A model generated the notes under the pieces. The model searched no databases, was not told the DNA's origin, and saw nothing but the letters and a program-made list of their open reading frames with translations. DNA of 64,000 nt, from positions 2,982,344 through 3,046,343 of the forward strand of contig JACTAT010000035.1 of the NCBI GenBank assembly GCA_014526335.1, given 5' to 3'. The DNA is from Chrysaora quinquecirrha (lineage: Eukaryota > Cnidaria > Scyphozoa > Semaeostomeae > Pelagiidae). The translations under genes were made by a program, and so were the position numbers. Below are positions 3,212-24,242 of this stretch, in pieces; the first letter of the stretch is position 1; each line of letters opens with the position of its first letter.

Positions 3212-4200
3212 ATGGCGACCAGGGAAGATCGTGAAAAAGCTGTGGCTGCAAGAGAAACTCTTGACAGTAAGCTCGAACTGCTCTTCATTATACATTTAGT
3301 ATACCAGTGGCTTTGAACACGAGATTTATCATTGATTTTCTGCATTAAGTGGTGTTTTAGGTCTATTTGTGATAAATATTATGACAATTTCTAGGACTGC
3401 TTTCAGGCCTCCTAATAAGAAACGACTTGACAATTTCAAAATAATAGGCCTACTCTGCTTAATTGGTAACTTTTAAGCATATTAAAGCACTAAAAAAGGT
3501 ATTTAAAACGTATTCAAAAATCAACCCATGCTTTATAAAAGAGTCTAAATTATTTCTGTCCTTGAGATAGTCTTTATGTGTTCTTCTATAATAACACGCA
3601 ATTTTTTTTATAAAGAAGTGCTTTTTATAAGGAAGGTAGTACTCGGGCTGGCAAAAGCTTAAGGAATTTCTAGTACTGGACCGTAGACTACTTAGGAATC
3701 TGACTTTTTCTTTAACTTAGCATTTCGATTAAAAAATGAAGTTTTGAATTAACAGAGCAAGCATTACTTATCGCCAATGGTTTTCAATCAGTATTCATTT
3801 CTACTCGTCTTCTGAAACCTTTACGACCTATATTTCCTTGACCATTGGTTGTTTTTAAGAATCACAAAGTAAGAAGTTTAGGAATTGCTAAGGAATATTG
3901 AGTACTCAATTTTCAACATCAGTTAAGGAATTTTCAGTACTGACTCTGAGCCGAACTTCCTTATAAAAAAATGCGTGTAAATGTCAATTGTAATAGTTGT
4001 TTATTATTAATATTACTAATTTTTTCTTTCTTAAAGTTTTAATGGAAATATCAAATTTGCTAAATACTGGATTGGACTCTGAGAGCTTGTCAATATGTGT
4101 AAAACTTATTGAATCTGGAGTAAACCCTGAAGCTTTGGCCGTCGTTATAAAGGAACTAAGAAGGGAATCTGCTGCATTACAGGTAGGTTCTATAGATTAA
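3212..4200 (+). CDS. MZT1: Mitotic-spindle organizing protein 1 (MOZART1)
   Basis: MZT1 is the small subunit that binds N-termini of gamma-tubulin complex proteins and recruits gamma-TuRC to centrosomes. Exon 1 is 3212-3266 (18 codons plus one base, donor GTAAGC); exon 2 begins at 4037 after TTAAAG. Together they give [17 protein letters not shown], then [17 protein letters not shown] and VIKELRRE, which is nearly the whole MOZART1 fold with the expected intron. The frame reads to a TAA at 4198-4200 (about 71 residues; human about 82), but CAG|GTAGGT at 4182 is a good donor and human MZT1 has a short third exon, so the real C-terminus may be spliced from an unrecognised exon downstream. The intron carries a MITE (3595-3977). 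Confidence 0.9.
3595..3977. mobile_element. TA-type MITE with TATAAGGAA subterminal motif
   Basis: The ends are inverted copies: CACGCA plus T-run plus TATAA on the left and TTATAAAAAAATGCGTG on the right, followed by TA. Subterminal segments with GTACTCGG/CAGTACTGA are also mirrored. The same family recurs at 5566-5939, 11182-11435, 16586-16950 and 48905-49490, with single ends near 25420, 40472 and 61020. It lies in the MZT1 intron. Confidence 0.7.
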
Positions 4201-4297
4201 ATGACTTTGCTTGTTTTGTTATCTTTATTACATTATGTTTTTGGGTATGCATATGCATTTCAAGATTTCAGGGAAGAATTTTATATGTATGTGAGTA

Positions 4298-4302
4298 ATG
4301 TA

Positions 4303-4374
<72 letters not shown>

Positions 4375-4542
4375 CAACTAAGTAACTCACTAACTAACTA
4401 ACTAACTAACTAACTAACCAACTAAGTAACTTACTAACTAACTAACTAACTAACTTAGTTAGTTAACCAGTTGGTTAATGTGTTAGTTCATCAGTTAGAT
4501 TGTAAGTAAGTAAGTCAGTTAGTAAGTTAGTTAGTTAGTTAA

Positions 4543-4592
<50 letters not shown>

Positions 4593-4718
4593 CATTAGTT
4601 AGTTAGTTAGTTAGTTCGTTAGTTAGTTAGTTAGTTAGTTAGTTTGTTTGTTCGTTAGTTAGTTAGTTAGTTAGTTAGTTCGTTAGTTAGTTAGTTAGTT
4701 AGTTAGTTTGTTTGTTCA

Positions 4719-4756
<38 letters not shown>

Positions 4757-4757
4757 C

Positions 4758-4788
<31 letters not shown>

Positions 4789-4852
4789 CGTTAGTTCGTT
4801 CGTTCGTAAGTTAGTTAGTTAGTTAGTTAGTTCGTTAGTTAGTTAGATATTT
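4298..4852. repeat. (TAAC)n then (GTTA)n inverted microsatellite
   Basis: About 155 bp of near-perfect TAAC units on the plus strand switch around 4450 to about 380 bp of GTTA units, the reverse complement. The whole array is therefore a potential long hairpin. Interruptions such as GTTC and GTAA are themselves repeated. Confidence 0.95.
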
Positions 4853-6402
4853 TATTTAGGTGTTCTTGATTAAAATCTTTCTAACGCCATCCTAGGCTGC
4901 AAGTACCTAAGAATTGCGAGAGAAGAGAACACGACATAAAGATGAATGATGAACTCTGATGAATTGGAAGCATCAAGATCCAGCTCACATAATGAATGAA
5001 AAAATCTTAGAATTTCGCAAAAATACAAAACTGCTGTCGTTTTGAAGTAAGATTTTTGTTTAGATAGCACTTTCATTTCATTTAGCTTTTTATGTAAATA
5101 TTAGTCAAGAGGTTACAGGAAGTCTTTTTTTATAACAAGATTTCTCATTTGGAGGAGATCAATTCATTAGAACAGCTTTTTATAAACGTCTAGAAACAAG
5201 TTGCAAGATACAGGGGAAAACATTTTTGGGCATACTTAAAAGCTTTTTTCGTCTGAAACTCCTCAGAGTATAAACGTCAGAACTTCACCGAAATTATACC
5301 CAGGAATTTATACCCAGTTGCGGATGGAAAAGCACCAATCAGAAAGAAGCGCTAAGTTGGCATCTGTTTTAAACACCAATCAGCTTGCGAGATACAGCGG
5401 GAAGACCCATAGCATTAACTGAAGAGTTCAAGTGAGAAATGGACTCTTTCAGATGACGTAGATGAAGTAAGTTCCATCGGCCAAATACCTTTCTAGAAGG
5501 CTACCCCTCGTTGTCTCAGAGAATGACTATTTGCCGCTTGCCCATGCGAGCATTAACTTACCCTACACTCTTTTTTTATAAGAAACTAAGATTTTGGTCA
5601 GTACTCAAAGTTTCTTAGTTTTGGGACAAATTTGGTACTGAAAGTTTCTTAGCAGTTTCTTAGAATCAAAATTTTAAGTGCCAAAACGGGCAATTGACAC
5701 TTAAATTCTACAAATAGAAGAAGCAATACAATTCACGTTTACATCAGCTGTTTTTTCTGTCAAAATAGACACTTATGGTGCAACAGAAGTTTGTTTTCTC
5801 GATGCTTTATTTCTAATTCTAAAGATTCTTGAGACCTGCGAGTTTCTTACCATTTTGGTCGAGTACTGAAAGTTTCTTAACCAATATTGATCTCAGTACT
5901 GAGTTTCTTATAAATGGGTTTCTTATAAAAAAATGAGTGTAGTTTACCAAAGAAATTATTTTTGGATTTTGTATCTGAGTTTTCTGCTTCCCGTCACTCT
6001 CGGAAATAGGCTGCACCGCACCCCTCTCTCAAGCTCCCTCTGGTCACAAGATTTTCACGTCGGAAAAGCGTTTTGAGAGCTTCAAGACGAAAATACTTCA
6101 TGTTCCAGTCTTGAATTTTCGCGAAATGCTTTCGCGCTTTAGCGATTTGCTATTGAGATTGCAAGGAGCGGTCAAGACTCGCTGATTTATTTTCGCGAGT
6201 ATTAGGTCATAGCTGTTGGAGCACAGCTTGGCTTCATAGGCAGCCAGGTCAGTGGGCCTAAATTTTGCTGCTAAACATTTCTTTGATTAGAAGAATTTTC
6301 AACATATCTGGGCATCAGATGTAAGGTTTTAACAAATAAAACATAATTGAAATATCATAATTTTCAATAAAATCGAGAAAAGGTATCGAGGAAGATTGAA
6401 AT
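4853..6402. other. Intergenic, repeat-filled, MZT1 to ATP6V1C
   Basis: I see no gene here. It contains a copy of the GATAAACAGCGGAAAC-type foldback repeat (about 5195-5420, with GTCTGAAACTCCTCAGAG) and a TA-type MITE (5566-5939). The last 400 bp upstream of 6403 should contain the V-ATPase promoter and 5' UTR. Confidence 0.6.
5566..5939. mobile_element. TA-type MITE (CACTC...GAGTG)
   Basis: CACTC plus T-run plus ATAAGAAAC on the left and its complement (TTCTTATAAAAAAATGAGTG) on the right are flanked by TA on both sides (5564-5565 and 5940-5941). It is the same family as 3595-3977 and closest to 16586-16950. Confidence 0.75.
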
Positions 6403-9400
6403 ATGGCTGAATTTTGGCTGATTTCTGCTCCTGGGGACAAGAGCCCGCAGCAAACATGGGAGAAGTGCAAAGTTTTCACGAAAGATCTTTCGCTAAATTA
6501 CAAGTTCTCTTTACCAGAGCTAAAGGTATTTACATTTAAAGTTACTTATTTATGAAGAATTAAAGAAGTTTAGCAAATTAACTCTTATATTAATGCTTAA
6601 ACTTTGCAGTGTTTTCTACTATTGCCTGGCCACTGTTTATATATTTCCCTGGGTACCCTACTAGGCCCCAGACAGACATGTTGATTTACCTTTGCAAGAA
6701 AAATCTCTTTGATTGATCAATTGTTATTTTATTGTAGGTTGGTACACTTGACACTTTGGTTGGTCTCTCTGATGATCTTGGGAAGCTGGACACCTATGTT
6801 GAGAGGTATACTTCTACTTCTTGTTATTTTTAAACTTGTAATCAGTAGAGGAGAACGTCTCAATCAACTGGTAAGAACTAAGGGTAATAAATCAACTTGC
6901 TACACTGCCAACTCATTTAAATTTTACTCTAAGAGTTAAATATTTCTACTCATCAAAGAGCTTAGCCGAACCGACCAGCAACTTTGGCCGAATCAACCAG
7001 CCACGTTTGCCAAGCAGTCCACTGAGGTTGGGCGAACCATCTGACAAGGCTGGTCAAATGGATGCTGGCCGAATAGGAGGTTGGCGAAAACGTCTTGAAA
7101 ACCTTGCAACAGTCAAGTTGCCACACATCTGGTCATTTTGCCTCTTCAAAAGACAACTTGCCACACTCACCAACTGAATAAGTTGACTCTATCAACTTGA
7201 TAAACAGGGGTTAGGGGGCAGCACCCCCAATATCTTATTAGAAACAAATATAAACAAATTTTTTAGAATTTGAATTTCTAACTGAGGCAAAGGTATGGTG
7301 AGTTGACCAGAAACCCCAACTTAGCAATGGAATACAGTGACTATTCGATTGGATAGTAATTGCTCAATTGATTAGCAAGGTCACTTTTCAATTGCTATGT
7401 TACTATTTGGTCAAGTGGTACCTGAGACTGCTTTTCATGTTGTTTATGGAGAAGATCACAATGTGAAGTAGAACAAAGGAAAACAATTAAGTTATTGTTT
7501 TGAAAACAATAGCTAAGCCCACAGCTTCCCTGTGCTTTTTACAGACTTATCAGTCAGGTGGTACCCAAATAGACATGATTTGGCAAAACTGGTACAAGGG
7601 TGCATCACAAAAATAATACACCTTTTCAACTAAGGGCCTCGCTTTCAAAAAATTTGAAAGTTGCCTCACAGAAACATTTGGACTTTGGATTCGAATTCAG
7701 CACCTTCGCTTTTGTGTTGAGGCAAATTTTAACGCCTCTAGTCCTTACAATGATGATTTTATAGCGATAAGAAGTTTGAAAATTTATAAGGGATTTGACC
7801 GTGAAAAATGACTGAGGGTGTAAAATTTCACCCGAGCAAATTTTCACTGTCAAATCCTTTATAAATTTTTAAACTTTTCATCACTATAATTTCAACATCG
7901 TAAGGACCAGAGGCGTAACGATTTCCCTCAACACTAAAATGAAGGTGCTCAATCTGAATCTGGGGTCAAAATTTTCGTACGAACGAATTTTCGTACATTT
8001 TGAAAACGAGGCTCTTAGTTGAAAAGGTGTATTCCACTGGAAACGCTGTAACCACTGTAATCATTGCTATTCTTACCACTGCAGTGTCACAGCTCATGTA
8101 TTCCATAATAGTAAGGTTATATATTATTTTGGAGCAAATAAGACTGCTATGTATTTGCAATAATGTTTGATATTTTCATCCGCATTTTAGTGTTGTGAAA
8201 AATTGCTGGGTATACTGTGGATGTCCTTGAAGAAAGGCATGACAAAGTTTTAGAAAATTTGCAGGTTCACAGAAGTAAGTTTTCTAAAACAGTGCTCCTC
8301 TGTATATTCGCCTTGTAGTTAAATTCTAAAGCTCTTAATTGCCACAAAAAGCTTGAAAATTGCAATTTTTGTTTTGGAGTTGTAGGGTTCAAAATGCAGG
8401 GCATAGTTGATTGAAGATTCAAAACTTGCTGAATTCTGAGAGATGTTTTATTCACAGAAATCAAAGATGTTCCCAAACAATATATAAAAACTGATTAATT
8501 TCCCAATCTAATTGATGTCTGTTAGTTTGGAAAAGCTGTATATTCTTTACAAACAGTGTTTAATCAAGGCTTGAATTTGTTCTGAGTTCAGTTCAGATTC
8601 ACTGAGTCGACTGAATCTTCTGCGGTATGGAGAGAAAGTTTAGAAGAAACCTTCCAACCCTGCTGAATAAAGCATTTTACAATGTCCAGCTGAACTAATA
8701 GTACTTCTAATTTTGCCAATTTTGTTGTGACAGAGTTTATCCAAGCCAAGTAGACTGCTAGTACTATGTCTGTTGTTTTATAGAGCTTAAAACAATAATT
8801 CCTGTGCTTTTTAGTGGACCCATCAACATACCTTACAAAATTTCAGTGGGACTCTGCAAAATACCCAATAAAACAACCACTACGAAATCTAGCAGAAATC
8901 ATTAGTAAGGTAAGTTATAGTTTTAGCTCTTTCTGTTTTGACGATTTATTTTTTGCTTCATTATAGTGTCAAAATACACCATTTAGAATTGAAATAATGG
9001 TTTTTTCCAGCAAGTTACGCAGATAGATACTGATTTGAAATTAAAGGCATCGGCATACAACACAGTGAAAGGAACTCTGCAATCTTTAGAGAGAAAAGCA
9101 ACGTAAGATACCTTAACTTATATTGATTAATAATGTATATATATGAAAATGTGACGACAAGAAATAGACTAGAATATTATAGTTATTTCGCTTTCCCTTC
9201 ATCAGTACTTTCAATACTTGAGAAGGATTGATGAAGCGAGAGTGAAAATGAAGCGTAGTGAAACGTCTAAAAAAGTTTATGTAAGTACTTGTCTTCTGGT
9301 CTTGTTTATACTGAAAAACAAATAATCGAGACCACACCAACTTTTCAATAGAAGTAAAAGTTAACCGTTAATTCGTAAGATGTTCAGAAATCGTACGCTG

Positions 9401-12400
9401 TCTGTAAGAGAATCTCTTGGAGGAATGACAGATCTGCCCACATAATATTTATTTTCATATCAGCATGCTTTATTGAAATTTAGACTGCAGCGATAGTTTT
9501 GTGCGAACATGTTTCCCCCTGAAGCCAGAGCCACCCCGTACAACGTGAGTGCAGTAACATGGAGGATGTGCCGTATAGTGGAGGGTGCCAATACAACATA
9601 GAGGGATATCATCAGTATAGTGGAGGGTGCCAATACAACATGGAGGTTTAGCATCAGAGAGGGTTATCATCGTGAATGGTACAAAGTTAAAACTTTACTT
9701 TGTTTTAGAATTAAAGAAACTCAATGTATGTAACTATCCGACCTATAGTATCCGACTTATTGAAGAAATCTCAAAGCATTCAAATGCAAATCGGTCTGAG
9801 GCACTTTCTGTCTGCATATTGTACGAGTCGTGTGCGAGTGTGACTCTACCAAATTTTATTTATATATAATTTATTTCACAGAGGAAGCTTGATGACAAGA
9901 AACCTCAATGATATTGTGAAGAAAGATAATTTTGTTCTTGGATCTGAGTACTTATCGACGTTGTTGGTCGTTGTACCTAAGTAAGTACCATATTGCGATC
10001 CTACATGCCTTAAAGGTGGATTTCCGTTCAGTGCTTTTTGTCGCGTCTGCGGCATTTTGCGATCGACTTTTATGGAAATCCACCTTTATGTAGTGAAGTA
10101 CATAGACGAGGAAAATGACTCAAGCTGTCTGTCACTTACATGAGTTAAGTTTCGCAAGCTTATATGTATGGTAAGTGCTGAAGAAGTGTAAACATATATA
10201 GCCTAGACACCAAAGCAAGCTAGAGGGAGTCTTTGGCTGTATGGCTCGGAGAGTTATTCGTATATTTAGCTCGGTGGAATTTTCATCGGATCTTTTATCA
10301 TACAGTTCGGGTTTGAATCCTATCAAGTGTGGTGTGCCACTAGTGGAAAAATCTCTCCTTGTTTGTCATTCATAAACAAAAATATAAATGGATATGTACG
10401 ATACTAAAGTAATGCTCAACATAGCCTAAACACAGATCCAAATAGAAGAGGAGAGCTATAGGCTGCGTGACTGTGAGAGATAACCGACGATTATAGTGAA
10501 CTTTTTAGCTTATTTGAATAGGCATTGGCTGGATCATGCTGAGTGAAACTTGTCAGTTCAGTTGTTGCTCGATTGACCTTAACAGATTAATCTTGGCCGC
10601 CCTCTTTTCCATTGGTCTTATTATCAGGACGACCTGATTTCTATTATCGCTATTATTCCGCTTGTTGTCACTACATTTAGATCTTAATCTTAGAAACCAA
10701 GTTGATGACTGGAAACTTTCTTATGAAAAGCTGACTGATATGGTTGTGCCTCGATCATCAAAGTAAGCTTTAGGTTGTTTTTATCTAATAATTTTTTGCT
10801 TGCAAATGAAGCATTCTTTTGACTCACAATACTTCAGCTTTCATTTGTGACTGCTGTAGGGCTGCATATGTTGGACATCTAAATTGATTTTGCTGTTTAT
10901 TTCCATTAATTTCCTGAAAAGCTATCTGCTCTTACAACTATCTACTATTCTAATACGTCTATCTATTACAATTCTGTACAATATTATTCAAATTATTCGT
11001 CGTGATAATAAAGTTGGGTTTAAAAATGAATTGATTCTTTCAACAGGATGCTGTTCGAAGACAATGAAAATGCACTCTTTTCAGTTACATTGTTTAAAAA
11101 AGTCGTAGATGAATTCAAACTGCATGCTAGAGAAAAGAAGTATGTCTAGATTCAGCAAGATTATTTCATTCTTTTGAGGTGCACGTTTTTTTTTCTTATA
11201 AGAACAACCTTTATAAGAAACACCAGGCTGAAATTTTGGTCAGAATTTTTGCTATCTCCAAAACTATTTGAGATAAACACAAGAAAAGTTCACCAGCGTG
11301 AAGCCCTTGCCTGAAAACGCATTTTAAACATTTTTGAGAAGGGTAGGGGGTGATAAATTGGTGAAAAATCACTTCAAAAGTAAGAAACAGGCAGGCTGAA
11401 ATCGAAGCCAAGTGTTCTTATAAGGAAAAATGCGTGTACTTACTAATTTGCAACATCTCAAAATGCTTGTCTAACATTGTTTGTTTGTGACAAGCAGACA
11501 AAGTGTTTGAACTTTGTCAAAAACATCGTGAAACGCAAACAAATTCTCCTTGTCGGAAAAATGTTCTGTGACTTGGCCAAACGTGGAAACATTGCTTGAT
11601 AAGATTTCCAATGTTTGACAAACAATCTTTGTTCTTTTTGCCGGCGCCTTACTATGGCTAAACTAGGAGACTTTTCGCGCGTGACATTGTATTTCGCGTG
11701 TCTGCAAGGGTGGCTAAACATGCGAGTGACAAGCGAGCAACATCTCCTCAGAGTCATTTGCATGTCGCGGAGACAAGAAATGTTTCTGCTGTCTTCCAGA
11801 AATATTTGCGTATCTCTTGCTACAAATTTTGTCGCGGGCTACAAAGTTTCCGGAGTGGCTAAACTGGGAGACACCGAGGGAACATCAATGTCGCGTGCGA
11901 CATGTCTCCTCGTTTAGCCAGGCCTTTAGTCTAACTTACATCTCAGATTGGCCTTTTTAGTTGATGACTTTTAATTGTCTCTTTTAGATTTGTCGTTCGT
12001 GATTTTGTTTATGATGAAGAAGAGTTAGCTGCCAGTAAAAATGAAATCTCCAGATTGACTTCAGATAAAAAGAAACTCTTTGTAAGTACACTACTCAATT
12101 TGTACAGCTTTATAGAGCTTAGTGTTTGCTACTGATATCACAGAACAAATCCAGGTGCACGAGTGAATTCCTAATAAATAGCTTAATTTTTGTCTTTGTC
12201 TCAGACCAGACTTCCCTGAATTGGTTCTTGAACGTTTTATGTTGAATAGTGTTTGAGTTATACAAAGCTTCGAAATTGCGATAAACAGCGGAAACATTTT
12301 CGGGTGTACCGCATTTGGGTATAAATTCTGCCTTAGCTTATTGTATCGATCTGTTTCTGACGTTCATGCTCTGAGGAGTGTCAGACGAAAAAGGCTTTTA

Positions 12401-15400
12401 AGTATGCCCGAAAATGTTTCCGCTGTTTATCGCAGTTATAAGTTGAGAAATCTTTTGAATTTATGAAATTTTAGCTTACCTACAAGCTAGCAGCCAACGT
12501 TGCTTGAATAGTTATTTTTATTTGAGCACAGCGGCTCTGCATACCTAATGGCTGTGGGCTCACAAAATGTCAACTTAAAAAGCGGATGAAAAGCGAAAAC
12601 ATCTTAGGATATATTTGACAGCTGAGTATGGACGTCAGAAACAGACCGAAACAATTGTCTAGGGCAAGAGAAGGAACTCTTCTGTTTACACAGAACCGGC
12701 GTTTTTTTTTTTGGATGTGGACAGATTTCAAAACTTATACAAATGAAACAACGATCTTGCTGTGCCATTCAAAGATTTAAGACATTTATTTGACAAGAAT
12801 ACTAGCTGGCAATTTTCTGCCCGATCCGGGTGATCCAGCAACTGCTGTTCTGTGGCAGGGTGGGCTGTTATTTGGAGTTGTTTGAAAGTCAAGGACAGCT
12901 GTAAATCTGATTTTCAGAGGGACAAACAAAATTTTCACGTAACTTAAAGAAACAAATTTCATTGTACGAGCTGTTAGTATGCAAACTTATGAATGCTTGC
13001 AACTTAATATATCTTTTATACCTGTTTTATTTTCTATCTAGGGACCTTTGGTAAAATGGCTGAGAGTGAATTTTGGCGAATCATTCATTGCTTGGATTCA
13101 TGTAAAGGTGAGGAAGCTTGATGCTTTGTTCGAAGTATAACTTTTTTAACAGTTATAACATTATAGATAATACGGTATTTCTGTTATTTTCCTTGCAGGC
13201 GTTGAGGGTATTTGTGGAATCTGTGCTACGATATGGCCTTCCAGTTAATTTTCAAGCCATGCTGTTGCAGGTTAGTTGTCATGTTGGATATCTTCGTGTT
13301 TGTGTGATTGAATGAACGTTAAAATTTACGCAGAGAAGTTGAAACCTGAGGAGCCAACGGGGTAGGAACCAGGGGGAGCCAACGGGGTAGGAACCTGAAG
13401 AGCTTGAGCGGTAGGTTACTGAGGAGTCAAAGGTGTGAGGACCTGAGGAGCCAGGGGTAGGAACTTGAGGAGCCGAAATAGTAAGGGCCTTAGGAGCAAG
13501 AAGAATAAGAGCCTGAGGGGCTAAAAGAGTAGGACCTGGGGAGCAGAAGAGTCAGGTACCTGGGGTGCCAAAAAGCTGACTCAATAGACATTGAAGTCAT
13601 TTTACTGTGTCCCCTCCAATCGTCGATGAACCATTAGTTTTAATATCAAGATCGATACTGTATAGTTGATGAAGTTTTACGTGTCTTGGTGTATTTTGAT
13701 CTTATAAACGTTTTGGTAGATACTATTTGGTCGAACTTAAAAACAACAAGGACGTTAGCTAGGTATTTGCCAATTAACCGCTTGCATAGGTAATTTATTG
13801 CTACCAGCTGGCTACTTATGTTAATTTTTCTAGGTCGCTGTTTCAGTAGAAGATTGCAGACAATATTTAGTGTAGCAGATTCGCTTTGTTTTTCATTGTC
13901 TTTGCGTAGTGTTAAACCGCTTTGGCAGTGTCATGACTTTAAACCTTTTATAATCCAAGATGGATCCTGAATTGTTGTAGATGCGAGGGGCTTCTTTTTT
14001 TCTATTTGATTTTGCAGCCTTTCACTTCTGGCTGATCTTAACAAACTTTTCTTTTTTTACAGCCTAGCAAGGGAAAATCTCGTAAATTGAGAGACTGCTT
14101 GTTGAATCTTTATTCACATCTCGATACTCAAGCTTCAAAGGGACAGCAAGGAGATGTAAGTCCTTTCAGTCAATCTTAAATCTTTCGTATTTGCTAGTAT
14201 TTAGATTATATCTAAAGCAGTAAGCCCTTGCTTTTAAACCTGCCTTCCAGTAGATTGCTGGCTGTCGTTGAGTGTTGTTGAGCGTCGCTGTTGTGTTGGA
14301 AACCCCGTTAGCTGTTGGTGAAAATACCGTTTCGATTACACTAGCTGTTGCTAAGTTTTCACCCCGCATAACGTATGTGCAGTACAGTGGTGGGTGTGCA
14401 GTACAGTGGTGGATGTTCAGTACAGTGGAGGGATACCATGAGTACAGTGGAGGGATACCATGAGTACAGTGGTGGATGTTCAGTACAGTGGAGGGATACC
14501 TGGAGTACAGTGGAGGGATACCATGAGTACAGTGGTGGATGTTCAGTACAGTGGAGGGATACCTGGAGTACAGTGGAGGGATACCATGAGTACAGTGGTG
14601 GATGTTCAGTACAGTGGAGGGATACCATGAGTTGCGTGGAGGGATACCATGAGTACAGTGGAGGGATACCATGAGTACAGTGGTGGATGTTCAGTACAGT
14701 GGAGGGATACCTGGAGTACAGTGGTGGATGTTCAGTACAGTGGAGGGATACCATGAGTTGGGTGGAGGGATACCATCAGTACAGTGGAGGGATACCATGA
14801 GTACAGGGGTGGATGTTCAGTACAGTGGAGGGATACCATAAGTACAGTGGAGGGATACCATCAGTACAGGGGTGGATGTTCAGTACAGTGGAGGGATACC
14901 ATCAGTACAGGGGTGGATGTTCAGTACAGTGGAGGGATACCATCAGTACAGTGGTGGGCGTGCAACTCATTAGAGAAATTGCAACGGTGTTGTATGAACG
15001 GGAAGTATCTCTAAGCAGACAGTGATGCGTTTTGTGGGGCCTACATCTGTAAAAAACAGCTCCAAACATACGCTTTTTTAATAGAAGAGTGTTCTGGGCT
15101 TCCATTTTATGAAAAGTCGCGCTAATTTATACAACTAGTTATTGATACCTGACTCCCGACGCTCGCTGCTTTCTTATAGAGAGTCAGTTGCGCGAAATGA
15201 AAACTCTAGACAACCATGAAATATTGAACCATTCAAAAAGTGCTGCAAATTTCAATGAATCAAAGTCGAATTATATTTCTTTAGACAAAACGATAAATAC
15301 ATAAATACCGTAAGAATAATACGAAACTCACCTATAGACCTAGGAATGGTTATAGAAACTAAACAAAATGGCGGAACTGGCGGCTTCTTACTGTAAACCT

Positions 15401-18400
15401 AATCTAGAAATAGTAGCTATTCAAACAGCAAAATACTCGTATAGTAACAAAAGTTGAGTTTACCAACAAAACGAAAATCGTATTATAATAAAAAGTATAA
15501 ACCACACATTATTGTTGTCAAATTAATGACTTAGCGTCCTTGTTTAAATCTTTACTCGTTGTTTGAATTTAAACTTTGGTATAACAGTATGATAACAAAA
15601 CGCTATTTCCCTATAACTCATCATCACAGGTTGGTCATTCTTTCTTCGCCATAATTATTTGCAACATTTCATTCATTAGTTGTGCTGCCACTGAATAGCT
15701 TCTCGGGCAATATCTTTGACTCATCACAACGATGATATGCCCTGACTGGCTGCGCTTTTCGTGGCGGAGCGCCAAATTCTGACAGGGTGCCTGGCTTTCT
15801 CTTTCCTTTTGTTCGCGCCCGGTCCTCAGTGTCGAAGAAGTCGTCTCTGCAAATAGGAAAGTTACTTAAGGTTTTTATCTTTCTGTGTAAAGCAACTATA
15901 TTCTCTCTGAGAAGAGCCTCTAATTAACAGCAGTTCTATAAAAATACTAGCAATAAGTGAGAAACCAATTTGAGGGAGCAAACTTATGAATCCTAATCTT
16001 ACCTTATTATGATGGATGTAATCTTCTTTGGTCTTTCGAATTGCCCACTGAAAAATGGCGTATCGATTTCTTTTCTCGTGCCTTCAACTGTTTTTACCTT
16101 ATAAACCGTACTTTGAGTTGTTTTGCAATCGAATACTCTAAAACAATGAAAGAGTTATCATTAGAATCATTGGCATTTATGTTATAATCAATTTGTATTA
16201 CGTTAATACACTTGTGAGAATCGTTGGTCTTAGACATACAGAGTCAAGAAAAGGTTACAGTCACACGGTCATTGACCGGAGGAAGGTGAAGTAAAACGAA
16301 TGAGAATCTCATGCCACACCCAGTAAACGCCCGTTTTTTTCGAGGAAGGTCTGCAATGCAGCTTGGGTTTTGTTATGTGGAGGAAGTCTAAAAAATTTTC
16401 CGGACTCTGTAAACATACAATGGTGCTTAATACTTTCTTGAACTTCCCAAAAACAAACCGTACCAAATATACCATTGTTTAGGCGTAGCTGAGAATTGAA
16501 GCTAATCTGAAACAAAATTATTATTTGTTTTTGAATATATTTTTGTGAAGATGCGAAGTGTTTTACATTTCCCGACCGTACAATACACTCTTTTTTTTAT
16601 AAGAATACTATAAATTTTGTCCAACCTCAATATTCTTAAAAAATGTTCGTTTTGAGCCTGCATATATTCTTAAAGTATTCTTATTTTTCAAATCTGATAT
16701 GCGGTTTTAGGGGAACATGGAAAAATCATCTCATATGGTCGAGCGAAGAAAAATTGAACTATTATAAGAAAAAGAATGCTGTTAACAATCATGAAGTTTC
16801 GTTCTATCATTGCAAATCAGGCATCTGCTGAAAAATGAGACAGAAATAAGGGAGAGCTGAGGCTGAGCATATTCTTACAATATTCTTAAAAATAGGATGA
16901 TTCTGAGCCTGATTATTCTTATAAACAATATTCTTATAAAAAAAAGAGTGTAATGCATACTTATCTGGGTTGAGCCGAATATCCACCATTGCACAAGCTG
17001 TTCCCATGCATCTAGGTACATCCTCTGCTCTCAGATAGCCAGTGCCACTGCTATCAAGCTCGATTAGCGAGCTAAAAAAGTTTTCTGACATCAAGCTTGA
17101 GACTGAGCGTGTATTGTATGATTTCGGTGTCAAGGCATACAATTGGTTCTTCGAATCTATATTTGACAGGAATCCCTCATATAATTTTCTTGGAAATCCT
17201 GTATCAAATATAAGAAGAAAAAATGAAAATTGACAGTGAAAATGATTCGAAATCTTCAAATGTTAACATCCCAATATATTGAAATAATGCTCATGATTTT
17301 AGATCAAGGCTGAAAAGTGACGAGTGAACGATTTACAAAAAGAAACTCTATATGTTTCAAAGCTTATGTTAAAAAGTTGCAGCATGGTCAAATGCTTCCT
17401 CCTTGATAGGGTCTTGGTTAAAGTTTTAGTGAGCAATTCTTACTTTTTTATGACAAGGACCTTGGATTTCAACCAGAGTTGAGAGCTCAGAGTTTAAGAA
17501 CAAGCTAAGAACAAGCTGAGCCTTCTCATAAGCCTTGCATAAACGGGACTAAAAAGTAAACATGAGCAGATCGAATAAAATGCAAATAAAAAAGAAGAAG
17601 TAACATAATATGCAATTCTAATATTACCTTTAATATAAGATGTAAATGGTGGGAATTTTCCAAAATCCACATCTTCGAGCATATAGTTGCGAAGTTCATT
17701 TCTTTTCTGAACTCTATGGATAGCAGCTATACCCGGCTCATCTTCGGCAGCCCACCACTCTCGAATATGTCCGCAAAATTTCGCCTCTTCGTGAAAACCT
17801 TTCCTCTCCATCGCGTTCTCGACATCAAAAGCGAAGGTAGTCAAAGCGAAGGAAATGTCCTGCTTGTCTGGTAGGTCTAAGACCATTGATGGCTTCAGTT
17901 TAGTGGCAGGATCTTGTGCAGCCGCGACCCATGCCTCTTTTTTCAAATTCCTTGTTCCTTTGCCACAAACTACTCGCCTCATATTCGTCATCAGATGTGT
18001 CGAATCCCAGACTTTGTGCTCTAGTCGTTGTCTACTTTGGTTGAATTCGGGGATGCAATACCATACGTCGGGAAAACCTTCCATGCCATGTTGAATGGGG
18101 CTGTTTTCTTTCCACCGACTAAGCTCATCTTGCCATATTATTTTGCAAAAGCTGACATTTAAAGCTGACTTATAATATTTCGCAGACTCAATAATTTTTC
18201 TGGATATCTGTGCCAATGACTTCGGTTGGAATATTGTATTCTTTTTTTTATTCCCTGGTTTAGAGCTTTGGGTTTCCTTAGCTTTGCCCTTTTTGCCCTT
18301 TGCAATTTTCCCAGCGCTTGGCTGTGGCACACTTTGCGACCGTTTCTTTCCTTTATCATGCTCTAAAATGGCAGTATAAAGCTCTTCATATGGATTTTTA

Positions 18401-21400
18401 GGTAACTGCAACCCCTTCACTACAACCTTTCCAGTGACGCCGTACTCATTCTTATTGATTTCCTTTTCTTCTTCAGTTAAGGCAGTTTTCGCTTTCGATA
18501 TTATGCTGCGAATTATTTCTTGTTTCGACATCTTCTTTGCCTTTTCAAATACTTCATGTTGAAGCTGGATCAGAGTTAATGGCTTGCCCTCTGCATCTTC
18601 GATAATTAGCGAAAAGCATTCGCCGTCAAATGATGTCGCTAGAATGTCGATTCCTTTTTCGTGGCACGCATTCATCACAGCATCGTACATTTTTCTTTTC
18701 TCTGATTGGCTAAACACTTTCCCCTTCAGACCATAAAAAACTGGAAAGCATGCTGGTTTTTCTGGGTCGTACATTCTTGTCGCCGGGGACAGAAGACAAA
18801 CAAATAGCTCTTTTGCCTTGACACGACTTATTTCATAGCCAGTATTAACAACAGCATTGAAAACAGTAGAAAACCTCACCAGTGTTTCCCCAGTCACTGG
18901 AAATAAGTCGTCATTTGGCGGTTGTGGTACACTGAACTGAGTGATCTGAGACGTAGTCAAGAGCCTTCTTTCTGCGTCTTTCTCGTTGTCTTTTACAGAA
19001 GGAACCTCAATGAGAATGTCAATACAGTTTTTCAAAAATTGATCTATTTTTCCTGGTAACACATCTTTGGCAAATGGCGTCCTTTGTTTCGGAAGTCTTC
19101 CTGCATTCATCATTCCTAAGATATTTTTTATCTCTGTTTTGGCTGAAAGGGGCTGGGTTTGCTACAATCTGGGACAAAAATTATGAGACTAACTTTAGTT
19201 TTCATTAATAATTGTCTTATCTTCGCATCCCCCCCCCCACTCAACGTTGATCAAATGGCGCGAACTTGTTTTTCATTATCACTCAAACATTGTTCCCAGG
19301 GGAGGAAGGGGAGTGAATTACTGATCAGCGACGTTATGTTAAGTTAAGTAATTGCGAGTCTTTATCGGAATCTTCTGGTTATCTCGTTATATTTAGTCCA
19401 AGGTTGTAGTATAGATAAATCATTGCCTGTTACAATTACTTTGTTGAGCTTTAAACCACAAAAGCAAAATATGGTAGCTAGCTACGAAATACCAATTAGT
19501 GTTATGTGTTATGGAATTACCTGAACGCAATATTGAGTCAGATGGTACAGCAAAGTTGATAGAACTTCTTTCTGGGTTGTAATGGCCTCTTTTTGTATCT
19601 CCATTCAAAAATCTGCTGAATTTCAGTCCTCTATTAAACCTCAACCATTTTCCGTGAAAAAGTAGAAAACCGAACATCCAGAACAGCATTGTCTCTTTAC
19701 GGTATCGCATTCCACTAACATTCTGCAATCCATAAAATCTTACTACGTCAAGAAAGAGAAGGAAAGATATGTTCGATAAAGGGAATTTATCATTTGCAAC
19801 TAACTTTAGAAAAAGCTTTATATCGTTTATGACTCCTGACTCTGTCAATGCAGGTATGGCCTTCTCCAACAATTCAAGCAGCGACTCTTCTTCAGAATTT
19901 ATAGAAGAAAATGAATCATCTAGCATCGATTCATCTAAATCACCAATAACGTCTTCAATGCTAACTGTGCTCTCTTCTACATCAACACCATCGTTCTCTT
20001 GAGTCACTGAAACGTCCAAGTCATCTATTCCTGAGAGATTAAACGGAAATAAGGTGCGTCTGACTCCGGTCGTAGAAGATCCAAGCGAATCTTCAAAGGC
20101 TCGTTCCGCAGACGCCGGGTCGGTGTTTATATTGCCATTGTAACTTTCTAGAAATTCCTGGTAACGACTCGCAGGGCTGCTTGTTCTCTTTGAAGGTGCC
20201 CTCTCTAAACTTTCAATAAATGCTTTGAATCGTGGATCCATGACAAAATTCCAACGACCAATCGAAATCAACGTACTAAGAGTAAGAGTAAGACGTTTAA
20301 CATCAGTAACATTACTCCAGTCTCCGATCCCTCTCCAGTCTTTCTACTCTTAACACAGGCAGTAAAATGATAATTAACTTTTCAGGTGAGAATAAGGAGG
20401 TGACGCATGATTCAATTAGTTTATACTACCCTATTATTTTTGATGAATACAAAGAGCAACCACGTGACTACGTCCGATTCTATTTTCCTTTCTGCATCAA
20501 CCTTAATCGAATTTATTGTTCTAACAAAGGATAAATTCACATCTGAAGCTTGTAACTCCTTTAAGTTAATGGATAGGACATGAAAATCGTTGGAACATAT
20601 TAAGGAAATAGTCAAATCTCTTTGTTTTTGTTTGGTTTTCGATCGAAAATAAGATTGTTGCGTGCTAAGTTTCTCCCGTAATTTGTTTAGATGTTTTCAT
20701 TTTGATTTTTCAATTAAATCTCCGCTAGTTGTCTGATAACTGCTTTTGTTAAGGACGTTCAATGTAATATAACTGGAGAGATAACAAAGATATATATAAT
20801 CGCTAATTGGTTGCGTGATGGAATAACTAATTGCTTGATTATGATGTCAGTTCACAACAAAAGGAAGCAAAAAAACTTTTTAATGGGAAAGCATATGAAT
20901 GAATAAACAGACAGGGTGTATTCAATGAATGAGAAGAGCGTGTTTCAGATTAAATTTAAAAAGTACATTTGCATTTCTGTAATTACATTTATGGCTAATT
21001 ACCTTACGAAGTGAAATGAATCGCAGGTAACAAAATCTAGTCCATGGTTATTAATCTCCAGGAAACAAATTTCTAAAACATTAATGTTGTAAAATAGGCT
21101 TTTCAAACCAATCAGTGATGGGCGCAATTTCACTACCTCGTTTGGCTATAAACACCAGAAACACTATTGTCGATTGGCACTTGGTACATTATCAACTAGA
21201 AGACTAGAATATTCCTTGAAGTCAATGCTCAAACATATGAATCATAATGTCACAGAACAGTAGGCCTAAGCATCAACAGAAATCGGTATTTCGCAGCCCT
21301 CAACCCGGATTCCAAAACAGGAATGTATTATATAATCAAGAACTGGAGTCATCAACGTTTTGCGCAGAGCCACTAACTCTTCCAAAGCCTGTTTTCACTG

Positions 21401-24242
21401 AGAATGTTTTGGAGAACCGTTCGAGGTATAGAGAAGACGAACAGGGTGGAGGCCCAAGAGTTGAGGAAACAGAGAGTGACAGTTTTCTAGACTTTAGCCA
21501 AAGCAGAGACGATGACGAAACCTTTTATAGCAGTATGAACACCTATCAAGATTTAAAAACTCCTGGTGCTGCTCCTCAACATGCGTCATTTACAGTAGAA
21601 AGTTCGAACATAAGTCAGCATTATGGGAGAGAAAAGGAAGACAACGCAAAGGAGAGGAAGAAGAGCGGATTACGCTGCACTAAACCGGGATGCAGCAAGG
21701 AATTTTCAAGGAAGGATGCCCTTCAAAGACATCTCGATAGTGTGCACAAGGGAATGAAAATCGCGTGCCCACAGTGTAGCAAACTTTTCCGGGACAAAGC
21801 TGCCCTAAAAAGACATGCCACTAACCACCATGACAGCCAGGATTTTCAATGTGATGCGGTCGACTGTGGAAAAACATTTTCCTCGAAAGATAGCCTGGCA
21901 CATCACAAGAAGGCAAAACATTTTCAAGGCAATCTTTTTAGATGCGATGCTCCGCAATGCAGAGCGAAATTCACCCACAGGCACTTGTTGGAGGGTCATA
22001 TGGTGACACACACTGGAGAGAGTGATTTGGAGTGTCCCCTATGTAGCTCAAAATTCACTTACAGGCACAACCTCGCAAGACACAAGCTAAAGTGTAAAGG
22101 CAAGGGAAGGGCACCACCTGGTTCAGGAGGATTTGAATGCAAGGTGAACGGCTGTGGGAAAAAATATGCCGACAACAGGTGCTTGAAGAGGCATTTTTCA
22201 GCATCTCACAGTAAAATAAAATACATGTGCGAGTTCTGTAAGACGCAGTTCTCCTACAGATCTGGTTTATCCAGACACGCATGTGCAGTGCAGAAACTCT
22301 AAGTGGTAGAGAGAACTGTGGGCCCTGAGTAAAACATAACAAGGACGCTAAGTCATTAATTTGACAACAATAATGTGTGGTTTATACTTTTTATTATAAT
22401 ACGATTTTCGTTTTGTTGGTAAACTCAACTTTTGTTACTATACGAGTATTTTGCTGTTTGAATAGCTACTATTTCTAGATTAGGTTTACAGTAAGAAGCC
22501 GCCAGTTCCGCCATTTTGTTTAGTTTCTATAACCATTCCTAGGTCTATAGGTGAGTTTCGTATTATTCTTACGGTATTTATGTATTTATCGTTTTGTCTA
22601 AAGAAATATAATTCGACTTTGATTCATTGAAATTTGCAGCACTTTTTGAATGGTTCAATATTTCATGGTTGTCTAGAGTTTTCATTTCGCGCAACTGACT
22701 CTCTATAAGAAAGCAGCGAGCGTCGGGAGTCAGGTATCAATAACTAGTTGTATAAATTAGCGCGACTTTTCATAAAATGGAAGCCCAGAACACTCTTCTA
22801 TTAAAAAAGCGTATGTTTGGAGCTGTTTTTTACAGATGTAGGCCCCACAAAACGCATCACTGTCTGCTTAGAGATACTTCCCGTTCATACAACACCGTTG
22901 CAATTTCTCTAATGAGTTGCACGCCCACCACTGTACTGATGGTATCCCTCCACTGTACTGAACATCCACCCCTGTACTGATGGTATCCCTCCACTGTACT
23001 GAACATCCACCCCTGTACTGATGGTATCCCTCCACTGTACTTATGGTATCCCTCCACTGTACTGAACATCCACCCCTGTACTCATGGTATCCCTCCACTG
23101 TACTGATGGTATCCCTCCACCCAACTCATGGTATCCCTCCACTGTACTGAACATCCACCACTGTACTCCAGGTATCCCTCCACTGTACTGAACATCCACC
23201 ACTGTACTCATGGTATCCCTCCACTGTACTCATGGTATCCCTCCACGCAACTCATGGTATCCCTCCACTGTACTGAACATCCACCACTGTACTCATGGTA
23301 TCCCTCCACTGTACTCCAGGTATCCCTCCACTGTACTGAACATCCACCACTGTACTCATGGTATCCCTCCACTGTACTCCAGGTATCCCTCCACTGTACT
23401 GAACATCCACCACTGTACTCATGGTATCCCTCCACTGTACTCATGGTATCCCTCCACTGTACTGAACATCCACCACTGTACTGCACACCCACCACTGTAC
23501 TGCACATACGTTATGCGGGGTGGTTTTCTTGAGTAGCAGTCAAGGAAATCAACTCGGCAACATTTGAATTCTTTACCTAATATTGTCGCTATGTCTTTGA
23601 CATCAGTGTCTTTAAGGTCCTAAGCCTATGATTAGCTGTTCAGAGACACCAAGAAATGATGTCGCTGACATATTGCTAGCTGTGGGAGAGGTAATTATAC
23701 GAGTGGTTCCAAAATTTCGCTAGCCTATATCACAAAACTCGTCGACAGCTTGTGGCGTACACTTTTTTTCAATAAGCAACTGGTCAATAAGCAACTAAGG
23801 GCTTAGATTTGCTCAAATATTTTGTTGACTTGAAATAGCTTTCTTTATACAATATATCATTGCAAACTTATTGCAAATTACATTGAGCAGCATGAAAGTA
23901 GCCCAAAAAAGAGTTTTTACGGGGTACCCAGTCTTTCTGTGAGGGTTGAAAGACTAGATATGTTAAGCAACTTCGAGGGCTAGACCGAAAGCCCAGTTGC
24001 TTATTAGAAAAATGTTTATTGGAATCCACGCTTGAAGAATGAACTTTTTCGGTTCAGTGTATTGTTATACAATGAACTGGTTTTACCAATGATATTAATA
24101 AAAATAAAATAAAAGAAGTATCAATATGATTTAAGATATAAAACTTCATTTTTAGATGGATATTCCTGGATTGATGATTGGACAACGTGAATACTACCCT
24201 TACGTTTATTTCAATGTCAAACTGAATTTATTTGAACGTTAA
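6403..24242 (+). CDS. ATP6V1C: V-type H+-ATPase subunit C, 13 exons
   Basis: Subunit C of the cytosolic V1 sector, the stalk subunit that clamps V1 to V0 and leaves on reversible disassembly. Exons: 6403-6525, 6738-6805, 8191-8274, 8815-8909, 9011-9102, 9882-9980, 10694-10762, 11047-11139, 11988-12081, 13042-13107, 13199-13270, 14063-14155, 24156-24242. All junctions are GT-AG and in phase. Landmarks: [20 protein letters not shown] at the start, [27 protein letters not shown], the highly conserved [19 protein letters not shown], and the C-terminal YYPYVYF. Length is about 378 residues (human 382). Exon 3 is two bases short at an A run (8198-8202), which throws it out of frame although exon 4 resumes correctly; an assembly error is likelier than a pseudogene. 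Intron 12 is about 10 kb because it hosts the 14360-23522 transposon. Confidence 0.95.
7619..8029. mobile_element. TA-flanked palindromic MITE
   Basis: CACCTTTTCAACTAAG at the left is mirrored by CTTAGTTGAAAAGGTG at the right, with GCCTCG plus TTTCAAAA continuing the inverted repeat; TA lies on both sides (7617-7618, 8030-8031). It sits in ATP6V1C intron 2. Confidence 0.75.
9532..9680 (+). mobile_element. Decayed terminus related to the 14360-23522 transposon
   Basis: It starts CACCCCGTACAACGTGAGTG, close to the CACCCCGCATAACGTATGTG end of the large element, then runs into degenerate units of the form CAGTA-x2-GTGGAGG followed by GGATATCATCAGTA or GTGCCAATA. No matching right end is seen, so it is a truncated relic in ATP6V1C intron 5. 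Confidence 0.6.
10205..10385 (+). mobile_element. tRNA-derived SINE, copy 1
   Basis: An A-box-like TAGCTCGGTGG and a B-box-like GGGTTTGAATCC are followed by the family tail GTGCCACTAGTGGAAAAATC and CATTCATAAACAAAAATAT. Related copies lie at 36369, 37287 and 48468-48730. It lies in an ATP6V1C intron. Confidence 0.65.
11182..11435. mobile_element. TA-type MITE
   Basis: CACG plus T-run plus CTTATAAGAAC on the left is mirrored by TTCTTATAAGGAAAAATGCGTG, which is followed by TA. It is the same family as 3595-3977 and begins 43 bp after ATP6V1C exon 8. Confidence 0.65.
11455..11640. repeat. Copy of the GTTTGACAAACAATG repeat family
   Basis: Left half TGCTTGTCTAACATTG and right half AATGTTTGACAAACAATC are inverted and surround GGCCAAACG-type sequence. 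It is a diverged member of the family seen more completely at 50700-50970. Confidence 0.5.
11641..11927. mobile_element. Inverted-repeat MITE (GGCTAAAC...GTTTAGCC)
   Basis: GGCTAAACTAGGAGAC plus TCGCGCGTGACATTG at 11656-11690 is mirrored by CATTGATG-type sequence ending GTCTCCTCGTTTAGCC at 11915. Internal GCGAGTGACAAGCGAGCAAC suggests further short repeats. GC content is higher than in surrounding intron. Confidence 0.6.
12270..12440. repeat. Foldback repeat family (GATAAACAGCGGAAAC)
   Basis: GCGATAAACAGCGGAAACAT at the left and ATGTTTCCGCTGTTTATCGC at the right enclose GTCTGTTTCTGACGTTCAT and GAGGAGTGTCAGACGAAAAA. Other copies or fragments: 5195-5420, 12570-12660, 28420-28470, 31560-31620, 33965-34505, 36205-36320, 42489-42731. 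Confidence 0.65.
13335..13570 (+). repeat. Minisatellite, about 28-bp degenerate unit
   Basis: Repeated units around GAGGAGCCAACGGGGTAGGA with variants (GAGGAGCCAGGGGTAGGAAC, GGAGCAAGAAGAATAAGAGC) run for about eight copies in ATP6V1C intron 11. No coding signal. Confidence 0.75.
14355..14359. repeat. 5-bp target-site duplication, left (GTTTT)
   Basis: GTTTT precedes the left terminus CACCCCGC and recurs at 23523-23527 just after the right terminus GCGGGGTG. An exact duplication on both sides supports a cut-and-paste insertion. Confidence 0.8.
14360..15544 (+). repeat. Left terminal inverted repeat
   Basis: The outer 600 bp are tandem units (see 14379-14958); the inner 585 bp are unique AT-rich sequence. 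Identity with the right copy stops between CCTTGTT and the next base at 15545. The inner end is 125 bp from the transposase stop codon. Confidence 0.92.
14379..14958 (+). repeat. 19-bp/22-bp alternating tandem units in left TIR
   Basis: Two unit types share the core AGTACAGTGG. The short one is 19 bp (AGTACAGTGGTGGATGTTC). The long one is 22 bp (AGTACAGTGGAGGGATACCA plus TG, or CTGG in place of CATG). About 28 units occur in a non-random order, mostly one short followed by one or two long. There are no spacers, so this is not a CRISPR array. The mirror array is 22924-23503. Confidence 0.9.
15669..20271 (-). CDS. Candidate RNase-H-like (DDE) transposase, spliced
   Basis: Exons read: 20271-19521, 19133-17628 (about 502 codons), 17198-16961, one near 16501 (3' end unclear), 16137-16003, 15846-15669 (stop TGA). 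Phases agree except around the fourth. A second Met at 20241 (MDPRFKAF) is a likelier start. The first exon has an acidic region, then [20 protein letters not shown] and [17 protein letters not shown]. Exon 2 has [13 protein letters not shown], a Lys/Gly-rich basic stretch, and [15 protein letters not shown]. Exon 3 has [21 protein letters not shown] propose D of FDGE, D of VWDSTH and E of SENFF as the catalytic triad, with an insertion domain between the second D and E as in hAT and P transposases. The C-terminus holds [13 protein letters not shown]. It resembles uncharacterised transposase-like proteins I recall from cnidarians. Transposition role is inferred from fold-like motifs and location between TIRs. 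Confidence 0.7.
16586..16950. mobile_element. TA-type MITE nested in transposase intron
   Basis: CACTCTTTTTTTTATAAGAA on the left and TTCTTATAAAAAAAAGAGTG on the right are complementary, flanked by TA on both sides (16584-16585, 16951-16952). It lies in the third transposase intron, 10 bp from the exon edge at 16961, so it inserted beside the splice donor without touching the GTATGC. Confidence 0.8.
20272..21246. promoter_or_regulatory. Divergent intergenic region inside the transposon
   Basis: About 975 bp separate the transposase start from the zinc-finger start, AT-rich and without an open frame of note. GGCTATAAACACC at about 21142 is a plausible TATA element roughly 100 bp upstream of the zinc-finger ATG. 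No transposase-side TATA was recognised. Confidence 0.45.
21247..22302 (+). CDS. C2H2 zinc-finger protein carried by the transposon
   Basis: Single-exon, 351 residues. Residues 1-140 are polar and acidic without a recognised domain. From about residue 144 there are seven fingers: CTKPGC...H...H, CPQC...H...H, CDAVDC...H...H, CDAPQC...H...H, CPLC...H...C, CKVNGC...H...H and CEFC...H...C. Linkers are short with only one TGE-like linker. The alternating C-x4-C and C-x2-C spacing resembles TFIIIA-type arrays. It is divergent from the transposase and ends 36 bp before the right TIR. Seven fingers would cover about 21 bp, close to the 19/22-bp units of the TIRs, so TIR binding is a reasonable but untested inference. 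It could instead be a captured host factor. Confidence 0.85.
   Translation: MSQNSRPKHQQKSVFRSPQPGFQNRNVLYNQELESSTFCAEPLTLPKPVFTENVLENRSRYREDEQGGGPRVEETESDSFLDFSQSRDDDETFYSSMNTYQDLKTPGAAPQHASFTVESSNISQHYGREKEDNAKERKKSGLRCTKPGCSKEFSRKDALQRHLDSVHKGMKIACPQCSKLFRDKAALKRHATNHHDSQDFQCDAVDCGKTFSSKDSLAHHKKAKHFQGNLFRCDAPQCRAKFTHRHLLEGHMVTHTGESDLECPLCSSKFTYRHNLARHKLKCKGKGRAPPGSGGFECKVNGCGKKYADNRCLKRHFSASHSKIKYMCEFCKTQFSYRSGLSRHACAVQKL
22338..23522 (-). repeat. Right terminal inverted repeat
   Basis: Inverted copy of 14360-15544, equal in length; the mirrored tandem array is 22924-23503. It is followed by GTTTT at 23523-23527, the right target-site duplication. Confidence 0.92.
23760..24016. mobile_element. 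MITE with AATAAGCAACT subterminal motif
   Basis: CACTTTTTTTCAATAAGCAACTGG on the left (after TA) is mirrored by CCAGTTGCTTATTAGAAAAATG on the right. A related copy is nested at about 48990-49250. It sits between the large transposon and the last ATP6V1C exon. Confidence 0.6.

Follow-up and report, generated by a model that had tools for sequence, protein, structure and literature searches.

The stretch of Chrysaora quinquecirrha DNA analyzed here (the window, 64,000 nucleotides, C268:2982344-3046343 in a searched genome of 328 Mb) contains a transposon of 9163 bp at 14360-23522, with the termini CACCCCGC at 14360 and GCGGGGTG at 23522 (Table 1). At the junctions, GTTTT is followed by CACCCC on the left and GGGGTG by GTTTT on the right. 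A preliminary description of this DNA had proposed a transposon with these ends, terminal inverted repeats (TIRs) of 1185 bp without differences and an exact 5-bp target-site duplication (TSD). The element is confirmed as a real TIR transposon: the two TIRs are fully complementary, both flanks carry the duplication, and other copies in the genome place the ends at the same positions rather than elsewhere. The absence of any difference over the 1185 bp of TIR supports the recent insertion that had been suggested, with the caveat that gene conversion could also keep the TIRs alike.

Upstream of the element, two exons match V-ATPase_C in Pfam (E 1.2e-5 and 2.3e-11), and downstream, near 24150-24230, lies an exon identified by its motif REYYPYVYF and taken for the last V-ATPase exon. 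The insertion site is thus confirmed as the last intron of the gene for V-ATPase subunit C, which makes precise the V-ATPase intron named at first. The empty site proposed as a check was not found in this assembly: a search with the joined flanks matched the entire flanks at the window locus alone, in two separate halves, and otherwise gave short matches to repeats.

Table 1. Features of the transposon in the window (positions are those of the window)
Feature	Position	Strand	Remark
Left TSD, GTTTT	14355..14359	.	flank read; other copies
Left TIR, 1185 bp	14360..15544	+	100% complementary to 22338-23522
Tandem repeats of left TIR; units mostly of 22 bp and 19 bp, starting with AGTAC	14399..14958	+	
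Transposase last exon (E6), C-terminus and stop	15669..15846	-	by eye like C-terminus of Mercenaria P0020
Transposase exon E5	16003..16137	-	splice phase by reasoning
Nested MITE-like insertion, 27-bp inverted arms, apparently TA-flanked, just past E3 donor	16581..16955	.	
Transposase exon E3, SENFF motif (candidate catalytic E)	16961..17198	-	
Transposase exon E2, truncated 5' by the deletion; carries second D (SFDGE) and D-x-x-H motif (WDSTHL)	17628..19142	-	
Internal deletion junction (1941 bp missing by comparison with C386 copy); alignment blocks overlap by 3 bp	19147..19149	.	
Transposase exon E1, N-terminal part, NFAVPS motif	19521..20241	-	
C2H2 zinc-finger partner gene, 351 aa from ATG, conserved N-terminal motif	21247..22302	+	
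Right TIR, 1185 bp	22338..23522	-	100% complementary to 14360-15544
Right TSD, GTTTT	23523..23527	.	flank read; other copies

The element belongs to a dispersed group. An end pattern derived from the termini of two families, CACCCNNNANAACGTNTGTGCAGTAC, has 293 exact matches in the genome (144 + 149) versus 0 for the reversed pattern, and a search with the TIR finds at least 72 matches (1569 candidates, 40 scored). Among 34 element end pairs whose flanks were read, 21 show an exact 5-bp TSD and 13 do not. In one set of 15 pairs, both termini are perfect in nine, eight of which have the exact TSD; in the seven pairs lacking it, a terminus was not found (four), was only fuzzy (two), or was perfect at both ends with unlike flanks (one). 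A second set of 18 pairs comprises 12 with an exact 5-bp TSD, one with 4 of 5 bases alike in register, and five with none, among which one has a flank in common with its neighbour; no TSD longer than 5 bp occurs in these 18 pairs (lengths up to 12 tested). The remaining pair, from the element on contig C246, has the exact TSD GATCT. Contigs C170 and C389 carry one and the same insertion, so that the 21 exact cases represent 20 insertions, and their 20 independent TSDs, 81% A+T in composition, tend toward a symmetric RTWAY. Other copies with 5-bp duplications, as sought by the preliminary description, are therefore present, and the exact duplications across the end pairs read make the 5-bp TSD a property of the group.

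The C246 element represents a second family. It is complete-looking, about 9.13 kb long (L092:2930 to L093:2063), flanked by GATCT, with TIRs of about 575 bp that are 98.5% identical. The region of exon 2 is 49% identical to that of the window element, and a C2H2 gene is present as well. The TIRs of the two families are built alike: each TIR contains 26 AGTAC starts in the window element and 26 in the C246 family, the spacings being 22 or 19 bp in 23/25 and 24/25 cases, respectively, with similar unit types, and the ends of both have in common CACCC...A.AACGT.TGTGCAGTAC. The genome also holds TIR-only foldback copies of about 1.9 kb and miniature copies of 200-350 bp (for example, C324:9811337-9813285, C124:7329298-7329519, and C187:335551-335902). 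A diverged terminus of the same group (CACCCCGTACAACGTGAGTGCAGTAA, with two mismatches to the end pattern) is found in the window itself, at 9532-9557.

The transposase gene of the window element is not complete. Aligned by blastn with the C386 copy, the element gives two blocks, at element positions 3724-4790 (99.9%) and 4788-8799 (99.3%), which adjoin in the window and are 1941 bp apart in C386 (L040 4048 and 5990). The piece missing from the window holds an exon with VLSFDGKLLRSGLTRDHGDIDMSG (DGK, of catalytic type) and an exon for a YqaJ nuclease domain, which in the C386 copy runs in frame into exon 2 of the window. The C2 copy has the same reading frame from YqaJ into exon 2, open over 777 aa, and the AG used by the apparent E1-E2 splice in the window is internal coding sequence in other copies. 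The window copy has thus lost the DGK exon together with the greater part of the YqaJ exon. It follows from the deletion that the exon first delimited at 17628-19133 is only the 3' part of a longer exon, and that the apparent splice upstream of it is a by-product. Of the spliced transposase-like gene described earlier, the transposase stands and the extent of this exon does not. Nor is the element intact, as had been claimed; an intact autonomous copy is ruled out by the deletion relative to C386, and activity is improbable for this copy by itself, with movement in trans as a possible exception.

In C246, E1 and D1 lie in a single intron-free open frame of 436 aa, in support of their being joined, and another open frame of 819 aa extends from YqaJ to the end of E2. 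At the 3' side of the gene, the end of E3 at 16961 and the joining of E3, E5, and E6 in phase were set by reasoning. A coding exon near 16506 was considered and rejected since its phase does not fit, while the E3-E5-E6 joins are in phase and give a C-terminus like that of P0020 by eye. Nor can the C386 copy be taken for the complete element: it has exon 2 only up to residue 353, is broken downstream, and over about 11.6 kb gives no blastn match to the window element. In this unmatched part, L040:1826-2521 (-) is an open frame of 232 aa with CxxC pairs and no Pfam match above the cut-off.

Exons 1 and 2 of the window have no match among the transposase families of Pfam, in line with the initial view that the transposase belongs to no nameable family, and exon 2 alone reaches a best E of only 0.44 in the PDB. 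Protein relatives do exist. At least 12 proteins are found with exon 2 alone at E <= 0.01, at least 16 with residues 140-700 of a composite 1268-aa protein, and at least six in a profile search at E <= 0.001 (about 8000 candidates scored in each). They include proteins from Mercenaria mercenaria (P0020), Solemya velum (P0028), and a contig binned as Candidatus Thiodiazotropha (P0013). A search for viral contigs led nowhere, the alignment not being conserved enough. YqaJ is recognized by Pfam on the composite protein (E 1.1e-6) and in 15 of 20 relatives at E <= 1, and profile searches of the PDB give lambda exonuclease at 2.3e-6 (profile A4) and 1.8e-4 (profile A3).

The motifs that align are NFAVP, DGK, GD-D-G-E, the YqaJ D...E-x-K, D2 (DG), D-x-x-H, and E-x-x-F. 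In all 12 aligned proteins, D1 (DGK), D2, and D-x-x-H are present; E-x-x-F occurs in 11, the twelfth being cut short. In protein P0027, D, D, D-x-x-H, and E are kept and the catalytic residues of YqaJ are lost, so that the nuclease is not always needed. A DDE triad with a D(2)H motif between the second D and the E is given as the definition of the P superfamily (PMC4168063), and the D(2)H motif is described as common to other superfamilies also (PMC10045372).

Several comparisons point toward P elements. Four of the 20 members match the P-element/THAP9 RNase H family PF21787 (TNP-like_RNaseH_N) at E <= 1, all short of the Pfam cut-off (best E 1.8e-4), and none of the 20 matches PF21788 or PF21789 at E <= 1. 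The Pfam matches of the 20 members (some partial), and those of exon E1, contain no THAP family. As a reference, seven P-type ORFs from the same genome were aligned (A2). They match the P transposase 6p5a with E 2.9e-30, PF21787 in 7/7, and PF21788 in 6/7, and their FDE, SD, and QDxxE columns, counted by hand, correspond to chain positions 230, 303, and 531 of 6p5a, which are the catalytic residues of P transposase (PMC8230255). Matches to the P-type PF21787 domain number at least 150 in the genome, many with long open frames, so that canonical P-like elements are abundant beside the group described here.

With the YqaJ segment removed, hhalign of the family against the seven P-type proteins gives two segments, with scores of 52.8 (E 2.4e-5, probability 76%) and 43.6 (E 3.6e-4, 37%), colinear in both proteins, the first extending from DGK/FDEMK to DG/DG. 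In controls, 60 column shuffles reach at most 23.5, and reversal of one profile 19.9 and 20.7. With the YqaJ segment left in, the scores are 43.5 and 38.5, and the first profile comparison, before the cut, had a probability of only 25%. The cut was placed by us from the alignment, with five and then eight segmentations tried. The E motif lies outside both segments, the equivalence between SENFF and QDPLENYF being drawn by eye, and a plain HMM of the P-type proteins against the family is not significant (best 7.8 bits versus 4.4 for the best shuffle). Taken with the weak PF21787 matches, this colinear similarity makes a remote homology of the transposase with P likely. The preliminary description had left the superfamily unassigned; a relation to P can now be proposed, and the lack of assignment still stands insofar as the 5-bp TSD and the lack of a THAP match place this remote relative outside the usual definition of a P element.

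Single-template scores also bear on an assignment to some other superfamily with a C/D-x-x-H motif (hAT including hAT5, Kolobok, MuDR, or Dada) or to CMCT. The best scores are 29.4-37.1 for all seven P-type proteins and 14.6, the noise level, for the hAT template; of the rival superfamilies, only hAT is represented in this comparison, by a single protein. TSDs of 5 bp are known in hAT5, and CMCT elements have mostly CA..TG ends with TSDs of 2-5 bp (PMC12730594), which would suit such an assignment. Against it, no transposase-named Pfam family besides PF21787 appears in 20 members at E <= 1 or in 10 members at E <= 10, and in alignment A1 no Cys is invariant or nearly so from D2 to E. We consider it very unlikely that the group belongs there.

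The best reading of the alignments, not a proven one, puts the YqaJ nuclease inside the catalytic core. The insertion known in P and THAP9 is between strand 5 and helix 4 (PMC8230255); YqaJ would add a further one, located between D1 and D2. In the other arrangement, YqaJ would form an N-terminal module of its own and exon 2 would supply the true first catalytic D, with SDxDR as one candidate motif; the core would be unsplit, so that the window copy may keep a complete one. This arrangement draws on the D of SDxDR, which is nearly invariant (D804), and on the weak middle of the hhalign alignment between D1 and D2. It has to account for DGK, found in 12/12 aligned proteins and aligned with the P-type FDEMK strand, which corresponds to D230 of P. 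Moreover, the best hhalign scores require a cut shortly behind the DGK hairpin (52.8 for 120-320, 49.0 for 120-330); scores of 43.2-43.7, which come from the D-x-x-H region instead, result from five other cuts. An unsplit core is thus quite unlikely, and we retain the nuclease between D1 and D2 as the preferred reading.

The C2H2 gene noted at first is borne out by Pfam PF00096 (seven stretches; six fingers by regular expression). Its C246 counterpart, with five fingers by regular expression in a frame cut by the end of the locus, is 31% identical over 365 columns (E 2e-40), including the non-finger motif RYR-DE-GGGPRV-ET. The N-terminal part of the protein (query of 139 aa) occurs within 15 kb of a transposase position at 10 of 35 sites, where 0.12 are expected; the 35 sites were merged by hand from 38 rows, and the 37 transposase positions were picked and rounded by hand from 79 rows, the weakest left out. 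The C2H2 gene is thus a linked partner of the transposase. Two 4.9-kb elements on C324 consist of TIRs and a C2H2 gene (one a full frame, one shortened), with the transposase absent, and between the window gene and one of these, dS is 0.049 and dN 0.013 (ratio 0.27; Fisher p 0.0036).

A passenger gene with no role in transposition might show the variable orientation that is seen relative to the transposase (divergent in the window, convergent in C246), and in some molluscan relatives (P0020) the transposase itself carries N-terminal C2H2-like fingers. The linkage at 10 transposase sites, and in the C246 copy besides, the conservation of the N-terminal motif between families with exon 2 only 49% identical, and the dN/dS of 0.27 between two copies speak for a function, and a mere passenger seems rather unlikely. 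An array of six or seven fingers would cover 18-21 bp of DNA, nearly the length of the 19/22-bp TIR repeat, which is no more than suggestive.

In our judgment, the window element is probably a recently inserted, internally deleted member of a cut-and-paste group with a P-like split transposase and a separate C2H2 protein. Fuller relatives would encode a transposase of roughly 1300-1500 aa, ordered as an N-terminal part, the first RNase-H-like strands with D1 (DGK), the YqaJ/lambda-exonuclease-type nuclease, and then D2, the D-x-x-H insertion, and E, together with the separate zinc-finger protein. The latter, the N-terminus of the transposase, or both may bind the 22/19-bp repeat arrays of the long TIRs. 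The transposase would then pair the ends, cut next to 5'-CACCC, and join them to an AT-rich (RTWAY-like) target with a 5-bp stagger. Possible tasks of the nuclease are the trimming of ends at the donor or excision site and a bias toward repair of the gap from a sister copy. Since the window copy is without D1 and the nuclease, it was most likely mobilized by proteins supplied from another copy. Of this picture, the anatomy, the ends with their TSD, the deletion, the linkage of the partner gene, and the conserved motifs are established by the data, and the split fold, the tasks of the nuclease and the zinc-finger protein, and mobilization in trans are deduced from them.

The group appears to be new, perhaps a new superfamily remotely related to P; an entry for it in Repbase or Dfam may exist. 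The stronger claim is that of a new animal superfamily in which the DDE domain is physically split by a working lambda-exonuclease-type nuclease and end recognition falls to a separate multi-finger C2H2 protein, which reads a conserved code of 22/19-bp repeats in the TIRs. It is a tentative proposal, on which we are almost evenly divided. If the split core is true, a transposase and a lambda-exonuclease-type nuclease are united in one polypeptide, and a testable hypothesis arises for the processing of transposon ends or of the excision gap. The C2H2 gene and the TIR repeat, conserved together across divergent families, offer a system to test why long repeat-filled TIRs exist, and a branch with 5-bp TSDs is placed near P elements.

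With P elements and THAP9, the group has in common the cut-and-paste TIR anatomy and the colinear LPS-like, D1, D2, D-x-x-H, and E-x-x-F motifs. The profile similarity is only remote, however, and YqaJ between D1 and D2 and a separate C2H2 gene are features of the group here. The TSD of P and Pdre2 is 8 bp (PMC10983969), whereas it is exactly 5 bp here, with no Pfam match to THAP; for the P superfamily at large, 7-8 bp is expected against the exact 5 bp in 21/34 end pairs. In architecture, Galileo, a foldback-like member of the P superfamily, comes close: its TIRs exceed 1 kb and contain internal tandem repeats, in which several transposase binding sites were found (PMC3688188), and it has TIR-rich non-autonomous copies (PMC4168063). 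It differs by a TSD of 7, sometimes 8, bp and a transposase with a THAP domain (PMC4168063), and in the relevant passages of PMC3688188 and PMC4168063 neither a YqaJ nor a C2H2 partner is mentioned, both of which are present here. Foldback elements in general also have tandem-repeat TIRs and TIR-only derivatives, but the term is a structural label and not a transposase family.

The hAT dimerization domain PF05699 does not occur among the Pfam matches of the 20 members examined. CMCT (CACTA, Transib, and kin) is defined by C(2)C and H(3-4)H between the second D and the E (PMC12730594), and there is no conserved Cys pair between these residues in our proteins. The TSD of Zisupton (KDZ) is 8 bp (PMC12730594) versus 5 bp here. 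In passages from the literature on YqaJ, the P superfamily, and 5-bp TSDs, leaving aside, for example, PMC10225492, PMC7826175, and PMC8989519, YqaJ appears in transposons only as a separate ORF of ISL2EU (PMC4482050, PMC9179366). ISL2EU (PHIS), like the group here, combines a DDE transposase and a YqaJ nuclease in one element. It differs by its separate YqaJ ORF, its 2-bp TSD (AT), and a transposase with HTH/THAP (PMC4482050, PMC9179366), whereas the TSD here is 5 bp and, in the C2 copy and C246, YqaJ is in frame with the D2 part of the transposase.
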